20,462 bases of DNA, taken from positions 1-20,462 of IMG/VR virus record IMGVR_UViG_3300045974_000153; one strand, 5' to 3'. A program made the translations under genes and the position numbers. This DNA is from a virus. The notes under the pieces were generated by a model. That model did not search any database and was not told the origin of the DNA. It worked only from the letters and a program-made list of their open reading frames with translations. Positions 8,170 to 17,601 of the stretch are shown here, in pieces; within the stretch, counting starts at the first letter, position 1; every line of letters begins with the position of its first letter.

Positions 8170-9567
8170 ATGGCCTTCCTGCGCCGCCGTAGTACAGCGC
8201 TCGTCGCGGCCATCCTCGACCCGGCGGGATCGGCGGGCGGCGCGTCGGCATCCCGCGGGGCATCCCCCGTCAGCGGCGCACTTTCGCTGCCGACCGGGAA
8301 GGCCACAGGCGCAGCCAGTCGCGGAGCATCTCCGCTCTCGGCGGCGCTGGCTGCGCCCACAGGCAAGGCGACAGGAGCCGCCTCGCGCGGAGCGGCGGCG
8401 CTCTCCGCAGCACTGGCCTCCGGAGCCGGCAAGGCGTCCGGAGCTGCGTCCAGAGGTGCGTCGGCGCTTTCTGGTGCACTCGCACTCGCGAGCGGGAAGG
8501 CGACAGGCGGAAGCGGCGTGTCGCGCGGCGCATCGCCGGTCAACGGGGCGCTCGTAGTATCCGGTGGTCGTGCGACCGGCGGCGCATCGCGGGGAGCCTC
8601 CGCGCCGTCCGCCTCTCTGGCTCTGCCGACCGGCAAGGCCACGGGAGCGGCGTCCCGGGGAGCCGCTGCACTCGCCGGTGCACTCGCCGCAGCAGCGGGC
8701 CGCGCGACGGGGGCCGCCTCTCGCGGTGCCTCGCCCCTGGCCGTTGCTCTGGCGCTCTCGCCCGGCCTGGCTGCCGGCGGGTCCGGCGGCGTTTCGCGGG
8801 GCGCCACTCCAGTCACAGGCGCCCTGGCTCTCGCCTCCGGCAAGGCCACTGGCGCCAGCCTCCGCGGCGCCTCTGCGCTCTCGGCTGCATTGGCCCTGGC
8901 GTCAGGCCGCGCGACCGGACAGGCGTCGCGTGCGGCCGCCGCAGATGCCGTGTCGGCGAGCGTGGCCGGAGGTGCAGCTCGTGGCGGCGCAGCTCGTGGC
9001 GCGAGTCCAGTTCAGGCCACGGCGAGCGTGCCCGCGGGGCGCGCCTACGGCGATCCGGTAGCAGCCACGGCCTACGCCGCGCCGGTCTCGGCGAGCTTGA
9101 GCCTGCCGGCAGGTGCGGCCCTCGTGACGGTGCCGCAAGCGGGAGGTGGTGCAGGCCGGTGGCCGATGCCGGCTGCTTGGCACGTCCGGCGGGTCGAGTT
9201 GCCGCTGCGTCGGCCCGCGGGCGTGCCGGAGCCGGCAAGTGTGGCGGCCGTGGCGAGCGGCGGGGCGTGCGAGGCCAGGGGTGAGGTGGCGCATGGCGGG
9301 GCGAGGGGTGGCGCCGTTGTCCGTCGCGCTCCTGTCTCCGCGGACATGGCGCACTCGCCTGGTGGCGCATTCGGAGAGGCGACAGCCGGCGGCCGCTCGG
9401 TGGCGGCCCTTGTGGCTGTCGCTGGCGGGAGTGCCTCCGGGGCGGCCGCCGGAAATGCACGGGCCCTCGTTGGTTCTCTCTCGACCGCGAGAGGCAGGGC
9501 GCGAGGCGGACGCAACCCGTCTGACGAAGATCTCGCGCTGATGTTGCTCATGCTGCACGCGGCCTAG
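8170..9567 (+). CDS. Ala/Gly/Ser-rich 22-residue repeat protein, candidate head fibre
   Basis: The ATG at 8170 follows GGGGTGA. The 465-residue product is built from units that start at residues 28, 50, 72, 94, 118, 140, 162, 184, 209, 231, 253 and about 275, a spacing of 22 with three slightly longer steps caused by an extra G/S/V insertion. The unit reads roughly SRGASP-hydrophobic-S-GALAL-x-x-GKATG-AA. Degenerate units return near the C-terminus (GGRSVAALVAVAGGSASG, GNARALVGSLSTARGRARGG). The N-terminus (MAFLRRRSTALVAAILDP) and the C-terminus (PSDEDLALMLLMLHAA) are unique. It has one cysteine, almost no acidic residues in the repeats and many Lys/Arg. The alternating small/hydrophobic pattern suggests a beta-solenoid or trimeric fibre. 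I do not recognise a named family. Confidence 0.75.
   Translation: MAFLRRRSTALVAAILDPAGSAGGASASRGASPVSGALSLPTGKATGAASRGASPLSAALAAPTGKATGAASRGAAALSAALASGAGKASGAASRGASALSGALALASGKATGGSGVSRGASPVNGALVVSGGRATGGASRGASAPSASLALPTGKATGAASRGAAALAGALAAAAGRATGAASRGASPLAVALALSPGLAAGGSGGVSRGATPVTGALALASGKATGASLRGASALSAALALASGRATGQASRAAAADAVSASVAGGAARGGAARGASPVQATASVPAGRAYGDPVAATAYAAPVSASLSLPAGAALVTVPQAGGGAGRWPMPAAWHVRRVELPLRRPAGVPEPASVAAVASGGACEARGEVAHGGARGGAVVRRAPVSADMAHSPGGAFGEATAGGRSVAALVAVAGGSASGAAAGNARALVGSLSTARGRARGGRNPSDEDLALMLLMLHAA
8251..9129 (+). repeat. Tandem 66-bp coding repeats (22 codons each)
   Basis: About thirteen units of roughly 66 bp encode the repeats of the protein at 8170-9567. Unit starts are 8251, 8317, 8383, 8449, 8521, 8587, 8653, 8719, 8794, 8860, 8926 and about 8992. 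The units keep their protein pattern while third codon positions differ freely (GCA/GCG/GCC/GCT, TCT/TCG/AGT, ACA/ACG/ACC), so the copies are old or have been diversified, not freshly duplicated. Confidence 0.8.
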
Positions 9568-14162: not shown

Positions 14163-14900
14163 ATGGCCCAGTACATGTTCGGTGTCGGAATCCTCTCGTT
14201 CACGCCTCCTGGCACGAACCCGACGCCCGTCCAGGTCGGGGTGCTGCAGGACGTGACCCTCAACGTCACGTTCGAAGAGAAGGTGATGTACGGGGCGAAC
14301 TCCTTCCCGGTGGACATCGCCAAGGGCAAGGGAAAGATCGAGGGCTCGGCCAAGTATGGCCAGATCGGTTCCGGCCTCATCGGCGCCATGCTCTCCGGCT
14401 CGACGACGACGACCGGCATGAAGAAGGGGATCAGCCAGGAGTCGGTCACGATCCCTGCCACGCCGTTCCAGGTCACGGTCGCGAACGGGGCAACCTACTT
14501 CGAGGACCTCGGCGTCATCGACACGAACACGGGCCTCGCGATGACCCGCGGCGCGACGGCGACAGGGAGCGGCGTCTACGCTCTCAACACCACGACCGGC
14601 CAGTATACGTTCAACACGGCCGACTCGGGGCACGTCTGCCTCGTGAACTACGCCTACACGGTCGCCGGCAGCGGCCACACGGTGAGCTACTCGAACCAGC
14701 TCATGGGCTCGTCGGTGCTCTACACCGTCTCGCTCTACAACAACTTCCGCAGCAAGGACTACGGCTGCAAGCTCTACGCGGCGAGCTTCAGCAAGCTCTC
14801 CTTCGCGTGGAAGCAGGACGACTACTCGATCGGCGAGCTGCCCTTCCAGGCCGTGGCCGACTCCACCGGCAAGGTGATCGACTTCTGGACGGTGGACTAG
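14163..14900 (+). CDS. Major tail (tube) protein
   Basis: The ATG at 14163 has a strong ribosome binding site AAAGGAG (14150-14156), in line with the high dose needed for a tube protein. The 245-residue product begins MAQYMFGVGILSFTPPG and has QVGVLQDVTLNVTFEEKVMYGANSFPVDIAKGKGKIEGSAKYGQ, a beta core in which '..k.l.G.n.fPv.va.g..ki.g.ak.a' is the recurring tube signature. Residues ~100-185 form an extra Thr/Ser/Gly-rich beta segment (GATYFEDLGV...VNYAYTVAGSGHTVSYSNQ). The C-terminal part (LYNNFRSKDYGCKLYAASFSKLSFAWKQDDYSIGELPFQAVAD) closes the tube domain. The order between terminator and chaperone genes fits. Confidence 0.87.
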   Translation: MAQYMFGVGILSFTPPGTNPTPVQVGVLQDVTLNVTFEEKVMYGANSFPVDIAKGKGKIEGSAKYGQIGSGLIGAMLSGSTTTTGMKKGISQESVTIPATPFQVTVANGATYFEDLGVIDTNTGLAMTRGATATGSGVYALNTTTGQYTFNTADSGHVCLVNYAYTVAGSGHTVSYSNQLMGSSVLYTVSLYNNFRSKDYGCKLYAASFSKLSFAWKQDDYSIGELPFQAVADSTGKVIDFWTVD

Positions 14901-15211
14901 TGGCGCCGGTCACAGTCTCAATCGGCGGGCGCGAGCTGGTCGTCCGCCCGCTCACGGTCCGCGGGTTCGAGGTGGTCAGCGGGCTGTTCAAGGAGATGGA
15001 GGCCCGCGGCGGCGGCCCGTTCGCCTCGTCAGAGAATGTCGAGGCGACGATCACCGTGCTGACGACGGCGCTCTCCCGAGGCAACGAGGGCATCACCGCC
15101 GAGTGGCTGCGGGACGAACTCGAGATCCCGGCCGTCGGAGACCTCCTCCTCTCGATCGCGCGCGCCTCCGGCCTGTCCGCGGTGGCGCCGGGGGAAGGCA
15201 AGAGCCCGTAG
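14900..15211 (+). CDS. Tail assembly chaperone, short form (G-like)
   Basis: The GTG at 14900 overlaps the last base of the tail-tube stop codon (TAGTG). The zero-frame product has 103 residues: a small beta start (VTVSIGGRELVVRPLTVRGFEVV) and helices with NVEATITVLTTALSRGNEGITAEWLRDELEIPAVGDLLLSIARASGL, ending APGEGKSP at the TAG 15209-15211. Position between tube and tape measure, size, and a second open frame at its end are those of lambda gpG-like chaperones that coat the tape measure during tail assembly. Confidence 0.85.
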   Translation: MAPVTVSIGGRELVVRPLTVRGFEVVSGLFKEMEARGGGPFASSENVEATITVLTTALSRGNEGITAEWLRDELEIPAVGDLLLSIARASGLSAVAPGEGKSP

Positions 15212-15459
15212 ACTGGGATGGCCTCTACGGGCTCATCTGCACGACGCTCGGCCGCATGCCGTCAGAGGTGGCCGAGATGCCGCTCCCCGACGCCCTGCGG
15301 CTCTGCGCCTACTGGCGCAAGAGCCCACCGACCCACGTCCTCGTCGCCGCGTATCTCGGCGTCGGCGACGCGCAGAAGCCGGCCGCCAAGCCGCCGACGA
15401 AGTCCGACATCCGAGAACTGGGCGCCGTGTTCGGGCGCATGGCTCCCCCTCCGAGGTGA
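14900..15459 (+). CDS. Tail assembly chaperone, frameshifted long form (GT-like)
   Basis: A -1 slip at G GGG GAA (15190-15196) joins the first 99 codons to a frame that runs to the TGA at 15457-15459, for about 186 residues. The added part starts RQEPVDWDGLYGLICTTLG and continues with MPSEVAEMPLPDALRLCAYW, PTHVLVAAYLGVG and SDIRELGAVFGRMAPPPR. It reads like a real protein domain (DWdgLy...lg..p.ev..m.l.da). It has no suitable start of its own: the first in-frame ATG is at 15256, inside the domain. Long forms bind the tape measure through the T part in lambda-like phages, and the next gene is the tape measure. Confidence 0.82.
15190..15234 (+). promoter_or_regulatory. Programmed -1 frameshift signal: slippery site plus hairpin
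   Basis: The heptamer is GGGGGAA (15190-15196), read CCG GGG GAA in the zero frame. After five bases (15197-15201) GAGCCCGTAGA (15202-15212) pairs perfectly with TCTACGGGCTC (15224-15234) around an 11-base loop. The zero-frame stop (15209-15211) lies inside the stem. The P-site GGG can re-pair perfectly after a -1 slip. The A-site tRNA for GAA re-pairs imperfectly on GGA. Confidence 0.82.
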
Positions 15460-15462
15460 CGC

Positions 15463-17601
15463 ATGGCTGGCCAGTCGATCAAGCTCGTCATCGACGCCGA
15501 TGCGTCGAAGATGTCCGCGGGCATCAAGACTGCGATCACCGGCGTCGAGGCATCGGCGGCGCAGTTCAAGACGGCGCTCTCCGGCATGGGCTCGTCCGCG
15601 GCCTCGGCGAGCCAGGAGTGGATCAAGATCGGAGGCGCGTCGAAGACGGCCGCCGCCGGCATGAAGGACGGCACGAGGGCCGCGACCGACGCGGCCGCGG
15701 CGCAGAAGGAGGCCAGCAAGGCGATCACGCAGTTCAAGGAGAGCCAGGGCCGGGCGCGCGAAACGGGCACCTTCTTTCTGCGCGAGCTGTCTGCGATCGT
15801 CCCCATCTCGGCAGAGGCGCAGGGCGCGATGGGTGGCGTGTCGCAGGCCGTCCTCGGGCTCGCAATGGGCGGCGGCGTCGCGATGTCGGCTGTGACGCTC
15901 GTGGCTGCCGGCCTCGCGGCTCTCGGGTCGGCCAGCGCCAAGCACGCCGAGGATCTGAAGGCGCTGCGCAAGACGGCCTACGAGACCTGGACCGGCTACG
16001 CCGACGCGATGGAGTCCGTCCGGAAGAGCTACGCGGGAGGCCAGACGAAGGCGCTGCAGGCGCACCAGGACCAGCTCGACGCCGAGGCCCGCAAGATCCG
16101 CGACCTCAAGCACGCGATCACCGAGGCGTACGCTGAGAAGGGGCCGCTCGGCGAGCTCGGCGACGCCATCGCGGACCTGTTCGGAAGAGGCAGCATGGCC
16201 GAGGCTGACCTGGCCGTGGCCAACATCAAGAAGATCCGCGAGGCGATGGTTGGCCCGCAGGCCAAGGCAGCGCTCGACGAGACACAGAAGGTCGAGAACG
16301 TCGAGATGCACCGCACGACCTCGCAGCAGATCGCCAGCATCGAGGCATCGACGGCGAGCCAGATTCTTCAGATTCAGATCGACAAGCACAACAAGCTGGC
16401 AGACCTGGCACACGACGAGAAGAAGTACGGCGCAGACTACGCCGCGCTTCGCGTCGCGACCGAGCGCGAGGCGGCAGAGAAGATCCGAAAGATCAGCGCC
16501 GACGAGCAGCTCGCCTACCAGGCGGCCCGCCTCGCGGCCACGAGCGACCTCCTATCGGCCGAGGAGCGGCTCTTCGAGCAGTCGAGCCAGAAGATCGCCG
16601 CGCTCCGCGAGAAGAAGAAGGAGGCCCGCGGCGACTCGGCCGAGCAGGCGCGGATCGACGAGTTGATCCGGCTCGAGGGCGAGCTTGAGAAGCGGCAGGC
16701 GTCGCGGATCCTCGCGAGCGAGCAGCTCGCGGTGAACGTGTCCGCGTTGGCGCTGGCGCTCAAAAACAAAGAGCTGACCGCGATCGAGGCGCTGGAGTGG
16801 GACAGCGCAAACCGGATCTCCGCACTCAGGGCGAAGGAGCTCCTCGCGCAAGGAGAGAACGCGAAGGCTGCCGTCGCGGCGGAGATCGCGACCGAGGAGC
16901 AGGCACTCGAGGAGGCCAAGCGCGCGCAGTACGCCCGCGAGCGGCAGGCCGACGCGGCGCTGGAGGCGGACAGGGCGCAGCACAAGGCGGACGTCATCGC
17001 GAAGGACGTCGCGCGGTACGGCGAGGCGATCGGCAAGGCGAAAGAGCGGCTGCAGCCGTTCGCAGACGCGGCTAGCACCCTCGGGACGTCGCTCGGACAG
17101 GCGTTCGCCGATGCTGCTACCGGCGCCAAGTCGTTCGGCGCCGCCATGACGCAAGTCCTGAAGGACGTGGTCGGCTCGGTGATCGCGTCCGCGCAGAAGG
17201 TCATCATGGCGAACGCGCTCGAGGCCGCAGCCGAGGCGTTCGTCTCGCAGGCCGGAACGCCATTCATCGGCCCGCTGCTCGGCGCCGCTGCCCTCACCGC
17301 CGCCCTCGGCCTGGTCGGCGGCCTCGTCTCGTCGCTGCCGAGCGCGGCCGGCGGCTTCAACATCCCCGCCGGGATGAACCCAGTGACCCAGCTCCACGAG
17401 AAAGAGATGGTTCTCCCGCGCCACATCGCGGACCCGCTGCGAGAGCAGCTCGCGGGCGGCGGCATGGGCGGCACCTCCGGCCCCAACGTCACCGTCCAGA
17501 TCAACTCGACGGTCACCGACGTGGCGAGCCTGCGGACGTTCATCGCGAGCGAGCAATTCAAACTGGCCATGCGCGAGGCGACACGGAACGGGAGGCTCTA
17601 G
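15463..17601 (+). CDS. Tail tape measure protein
   Basis: The ATG at 15463 follows GAGGTGA (15453-15459), which also contains the stop of the chaperone extension. The 712-residue protein starts with a short beta/helical head (SIKLVIDADASKMSAGIKTAITGVEASAAQF) typical of tape measures. A hydrophobic segment at about 124-157 is followed by a long Ala/Glu/Lys-rich coiled coil (about 160-580), a second hydrophobic stretch (598-627), then AAGGFNIPAGMNP...LHEKEMVLPRHIADPLR and NVTVQINSTVTDVASLRTFI at the end. The AGGFNIP...EKEMVLP motif is a recurring tape-measure C-terminus. At about 0.15 nm per residue it predicts a tail near 107 nm. No lysozyme or peptidase motif is seen. Confidence 0.92.
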   Translation: MAGQSIKLVIDADASKMSAGIKTAITGVEASAAQFKTALSGMGSSAASASQEWIKIGGASKTAAAGMKDGTRAATDAAAAQKEASKAITQFKESQGRARETGTFFLRELSAIVPISAEAQGAMGGVSQAVLGLAMGGGVAMSAVTLVAAGLAALGSASAKHAEDLKALRKTAYETWTGYADAMESVRKSYAGGQTKALQAHQDQLDAEARKIRDLKHAITEAYAEKGPLGELGDAIADLFGRGSMAEADLAVANIKKIREAMVGPQAKAALDETQKVENVEMHRTTSQQIASIEASTASQILQIQIDKHNKLADLAHDEKKYGADYAALRVATEREAAEKIRKISADEQLAYQAARLAATSDLLSAEERLFEQSSQKIAALREKKKEARGDSAEQARIDELIRLEGELEKRQASRILASEQLAVNVSALALALKNKELTAIEALEWDSANRISALRAKELLAQGENAKAAVAAEIATEEQALEEAKRAQYARERQADAALEADRAQHKADVIAKDVARYGEAIGKAKERLQPFADAASTLGTSLGQAFADAATGAKSFGAAMTQVLKDVVGSVIASAQKVIMANALEAAAEAFVSQAGTPFIGPLLGAAALTAALGLVGGLVSSLPSAAGGFNIPAGMNPVTQLHEKEMVLPRHIADPLREQLAGGGMGGTSGPNVTVQINSTVTDVASLRTFIASEQFKLAMREATRNGRL

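Follow-up and report, generated by a model that had tools for sequence, protein, structure and literature searches.

The window analysed here, the whole stretch of 20,462 nucleotides of the virus record IMGVR_UViG_3300045974_000153, carries a pair of overlapping genes, G and T, placed between the genes for the tail tube and tape measure proteins; all of these lie on the plus strand. The upstream gene (14163..14900) encodes the major tail tube protein. Its product matches PHROG 8234 of unknown function (2.5e-47) and phrog_2729, a virion structural protein (0.003), and its AlphaFold model, of low confidence (pLDDT 68), has tail tube proteins as its best PDB matches (8xkn, E=5e-9). The downstream gene (15463..17601) encodes the tape measure protein, as judged from its match to phrog_27190, a tail length tape measure protein (6.7e-20). 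G itself (14900..15211) encodes a short, probable tail assembly chaperone of 103 amino acids and begins with a GTG start codon that overlaps the stop codon of the preceding gene. The AlphaFold model of G (pLDDT 85) has the HK97 tail assembly chaperone (PDB 2ob9) as its top PDB match (probability 0.87, E 0.068), which is a modest fold match with 13% identity, and several of its viral structure matches carry the name tail assembly chaperone. The G protein of a related locus, L068, matches phrog_7947 and the T protein of the window matches phrog_8018 (1.3e-4), both of unknown function, and no named Pfam or NCBIfam family was found among the matches of G and T. Elsewhere in the window, a 465-aa Ala/Gly/Ser-rich ORF composed of repeated GASPVSGALSLPTGKATGAASR-like units (8170-9567), which has no Pfam match, lies between the portal and protease genes, and the small and large terminase genes flank a gene (1766-2743) whose product carries a P22 antirepressor N-terminal domain (PF10547).

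The reading frame of G ends with CCG GGG GAA GGC AAG AGC CCG TAG. The slippery heptamer G_GGG_GAA (15190..15196) stands in phase in this sequence, within CCG GGG GAA (15188-15196), and is the sole slippery candidate in the overlap of G and T. It is followed by a spacer of 5 nt, GGCAA (15197..15201), and by the 5' arm of the putative stimulatory stem, GAGCCCGTAGA (15202..15212), which pairs perfectly with the 3' arm, TCTACGGGCTC (15224..15234), across a predicted loop of 11 nt, CTGGGATGGCC (15213..15223). The zero-frame TAG stop codon of G (15209..15211) is located within the 5' arm, and the 3' arm codes for part of the residues LYGL in T. The T domain (15190..15459), which comprises 89 codons in the -1 frame and is defined by the ORF, its homologues and phrog_8018, is open up to a stop codon at 15457-15459, followed by the ATG of the tape measure gene at 15463; it would be entered only via the frameshift. 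The initial annotation of this DNA had already described the G GGG GAA run, the five-base spacer, the 11-bp inverted repeat and the buried TAG, and every one of its coordinates was correct. By eye, the loop could also pair with GCCGTC at 15258-15263 (6 bp including one G:U pair) and is a candidate for a pseudoknot.

As a bare word, GGGGGAA is uninformative because its frequency is at chance: it occurs twice in the window when both strands are counted, which equals the shuffle expectation. Its weight lies in its phase near the end of G and in its conservation. Outside the slip site, GGGGGAA/G stands in phase at 2 of the 33,572 positions examined across 18 loci, a background of about 6e-5 per position. 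From T-based and tail-tube-based searches, plus the public phages 5W, KT1, Polewnik and MD-2021a, we obtained 106 related loci, in which the second frame is -1 relative to G. The in-phase slip heptamer is GGGGGAA in 92 of them, CCCTTTG in seven and GGGGGAG in four, with AAAAAAA, GGGAAAC and GGGGGGA in one locus each; for the lineages with CCCTTTG and GGGAAAC the heptamer assignment is uncertain. Since the count of 106 is inflated by many close Acinetobacter-type loci, the statistics rest on 22 representatives. Homologues of T were found in L002-L029, L035, L056 and L058. The L002 contig was the sole match in a search with G alone, and no relatives of T were found in genome contig scans, no viral contig matched a degenerate DNA pattern built on the cassette, and a blastn search of the region against phages gave no match. 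Ten of 79 further tail-tube neighbours were without an in-phase heptamer, several of these being cut by contig ends. G_GGG_GAA fails the canonical X_XXZ_ZZN rule in that the A-site tRNA meets GGA via a G:U pair, and this re-pairing of tRNA-Glu has already been proposed (PMC10885494). The initial annotation was right that the heptamer breaks the strict rule, but not that it is unusual, as GGGGGAA is the only sequence recorded for the published 'fivetwo' motif in a set of roughly a thousand SEA-PHAGES motifs (PRFect, PMC10885494).

Among perfect stems with loops of 3-25 nt, that at 15202-15234 is the only one in the window to reach 11 bp, where dinucleotide shuffles give 0.75 such stems per window; by arithmetic from this shuffle rate, the chance of one such stem at this exact position is about 2e-4. 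The 40 nt 3' of the heptamer fold at -22.9 kcal/mol as compared with a control mean of -11.5 kcal/mol, beating all of 487 control windows taken within 1.5 kb (p=0.002), with a z value of -4.1 against shuffles. Windows of 60 nt were less decisive (p 0.089) and the fold of 100 nt gave z -1.44, and therefore the signal is that of a local hairpin, not of overall structure. When codons were redrawn synonymously with the T protein fixed, 3.7% of the redraws folded as well and 5.6% retained a stem of at least 11 bp. Coding constraint accounts for part of the stem in the window, not comfortably for all of it.

Across the 22 divergent lineages, the best helix starting 3-8 nt after the heptamer was in the top 10% of codon-phase-matched controls in 14, where 2.2 were expected (Fisher 3e-12), and a helix scan from -90 to +104 gave its maximum exactly at 3-8 nt over a near-flat background elsewhere. 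Several of the 22 lineages have no strong helix (L003-L005, L063, L069 and L079). The window and L002 differ by 54 mismatches in 560 positions, with none from -2 to +65. In the clade of L008-L028, a distinct stem, UCCGGUA/UACCGGA, with inner helices is formed around the stop codon, 5 nt after the heptamer, and 97% of its cells are paired, as against 23-53% when the partner is slid. The synonymous third bases in the 3' arm of this clade (GCT ACC GG[A/G]) are nearly frozen, and the adjoining unpaired fourfold site uses all four bases. Comparison of homologues had been proposed as a check both on the G run, which indeed proved conserved, and on compensatory changes in the stem, for which true covariation in the L008 clade is slight (2 pairs). 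The stem of L067, CCGUAGAUCC/GGGUCUACGG, has the stop codon inside it and has the core CCGTAGA/TCTACGG in common with the window; its core arms are 10 nt further apart than those of the window, so that the 3' arm is in a different codon phase. In L068, UCAGGAGCC pairs with GGCUCCUGA over the same place. The stems are unalignable across most lineages, and their homology between lineages is for the most part something we infer. An amino-acid-preserving test gave p values of 0.025-0.033 for the window, L008 and L067, was weak or uninformative in the other lineages, and gave p=0.26 for all 13 tested lineages combined; in some lineages this control is uninformative because both arms of the stem are dual-coded. 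The stem is more than chance, its sequence varies by lineage, and the amino-acid-preserving control is weaker.

The locus is very probably explained by a programmed -1 ribosomal frameshift of tail assembly chaperone genes of the lambda gpG/gpGT type, with a 3' stem-loop as stimulator. Most ribosomes would translate G and terminate at the TAG at 15209. The 11-bp stem, beginning 5 nt further on, would lie at the mRNA entrance and hold the ribosome back while GGG GAA occupies the P and A sites or, immediately after translocation, the E and P sites. A minority would then slip back by one base, with tRNA-Gly re-pairing fully on GGG and tRNA-Glu re-pairing on GGA through a G:U pair, and these shifted ribosomes would continue into T to yield a G-T fusion of about 186 residues. 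The slippage itself and its efficiency are what we infer by analogy with lambda, and G-T may, like its lambda counterpart, link the tape measure protein to the tail tube protein. A lambda-like production of G and G-T by -1 slippage had been suggested in the initial annotation, and the gene order, the frames, the conserved in-phase heptamer, the T frames without a start codon and the placement of the helix all agree with it. This is very probably a real frameshift site, and it is well conserved; the phage trick itself is well known.

If T were instead a separate protein, made from its own start codon or by re-initiation after the stop codon of G, no frameshift would be needed. The record of phage 5W has two separate hypothetical CDSs, L067 has an in-frame ATG just past the stem, and in the window a GTG at 15103 is in the T frame. 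However, 88 of the 106 T frames lack any ATG, GTG or TTG upstream of their first W (in most of them the conserved one), and the T alignment starts at the heptamer; the initial annotation had likewise read the downstream frame as an extension. The GTG at 15103, 29 codons 5' of the heptamer, sits inside G, and the extension that starts from it is unconserved. No start codon was found in the window T frame between this GTG and codon 22 after the heptamer, which falls beyond the conserved W. Moreover, a separate T would leave the in-phase conservation of GGGGGA without a reason, and we regard this explanation as very improbable. In public phage records, the T part is annotated as a separate hypothetical protein with its start inside the conserved region (L063, 1531-1764; L065, 3631-3858). 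Slippage of RNA polymerase on the G run, rather than of the ribosome, could also give access to the second frame. In L014 (~1968-1985; same contig as L043) there are six Gs and G and T are in a single frame, as expected of a product of such slippage, and this sequence reflects either a genuine fusion or an error in the homopolymer. Five Gs make a short run by comparison with those known for polymerase slippage. In addition, GAA/GAG and the phase are retained, the hairpin spacing suits ribosomes, and GGGAAAC is found in one lineage and CCCTTTG in seven loci, all of which speak for ribosomal frameshifting, and polymerase slippage is hardly to be expected here.

It is also conceivable, but unlikely, that the frameshift is real and the stem incidental, with GGGGGAA slipping alone and the complementarity arising, in a genome rich in GC, from coding constraint where the conserved LYGL codons face the end of G. 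The fraction of synonymous redraws in which the stem survives, the lack of overall significance in the test of 13 lineages, and the lineages that have the heptamer without a helix are in line with this idea. Against it stand the helix peak at 3-8 nt, which was obtained with codon-phase-matched controls, the recurrence of the core pairing in L067, where the codon phase differs, and the nearly frozen synonymous sites in the arm of the L008 clade. With the stem taken as a stimulator of the frameshift, the initial annotation had further proposed that a ribosome terminating on the buried TAG melts the stem and thus tunes frameshifting. Besides the window and L067, in which the stop codon is inside the stem, it is within the helix span in L008, L029, L068, L072 and L075. 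But the position of the stop codon is free in the 22 lineages, anywhere between +0 and +96 nt downstream of the heptamer, and only 7 of the 14 strong-helix lineages have it within the helix span. Judging from the ribosome footprint, a following ribosome could not occupy the heptamer, 15 nt behind the terminating one. We therefore give such coupling very little credence. Where a stop codon closely follows the slip site, a hairpin starting 5 nt from that site will frequently include it, and most simply the buried stop is the result of G ending shortly after the slip site.

GGGGGAA is followed immediately by a zero-frame TAA or TAG stop codon in 52 Acinetobacter-type loci (for example L063, 1495-1504; L065, 3586-3595; L083, 3574; and 49 similar loci). 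The overlapping Ile codon of the T frame is ATA in all 52 because of this adjoining stop codon, whereas of 690 Ile codons in the adjacent tail-tube gene 19 are ATA. L063, the sole tested representative of this group, has no helix at 3-8 nt, and neither has L069, in which the stop codon is at +3. This suggests that an abutting stop codon can substitute for the hairpin. The idea in the initial annotation that a strong stem may compensate for an irregular heptamer does not fit these loci, which keep GGGGGAA, with no such stem in the tested L063. Possibly, though we hold this only tentatively, the near-invariant GGGGGAA has two exchangeable stimulators within this one chaperone family: a variable hairpin at 3-8 nt or, in Acinetobacter-type prophages that lack such a helix, an abutting stop codon that stalls the ribosome.

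Xu, Hendrix and Duda are reportedly an earlier source (2004) on the tail assembly chaperones of long-tailed phages. Those of lambda (gpG/gpGT) and other long-tailed phages have been reviewed (PMC5009743). As in lambda, the genes for the tail tube and tape measure proteins enclose two overlapping ORFs, with a -1 shift, putative in the window, close to the 3' end of the first ORF and a second part without its own start. Lambda slips on G_GGA_AAG (PMC7618472), whereas G_GGG_GAA is used here with a strong stem 5 nt on, and the sequences here have no detectable relation to named families. The 'fivetwo' chaperones of SEA-PHAGES have the identical heptamer in the same gene pair; in that analysis, no clear accuracy peak was found for windows of downstream structure, whereas the helix here is sharply located at 3-8 nt (PRFect, PMC10885494). 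Corynephage phi16 gp14A was also predicted to shift at GGGGGAA in its tail assembly genes, and the RNA structure predicted downstream of it is an H-type pseudoknot together with an internal Shine-Dalgarno sequence, GAGG (PMC5506516), whereas the structure here is a simple hairpin and no such element was seen by eye. For other phages, too, there are predictions of stem-loops after such slip sites (PMC3483164). Stimulatory 3' stem-loops start about 5-9 nt after the heptamer (PMC7618472); the 11-bp stem of the window, with its 5-nt spacer, agrees with this rule, and the helices of related loci peak at 3-8 nt.

In conclusion, what is new here is a probable frameshift site in a protein family without a previously assigned function. 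PHROG 8018, to which the T part belongs, and proteins near PHROG 7947, to which the G part is related, thereby gain a likely function, and the G and T proteins should be annotated as one frameshifted gene. One near-fixed heptamer combined with many independent stems at one spacing makes a natural series for testing stimulators, and this series would gauge the contributions of the hairpin and of the abutting stop codon to slippage on GGGGGAA.
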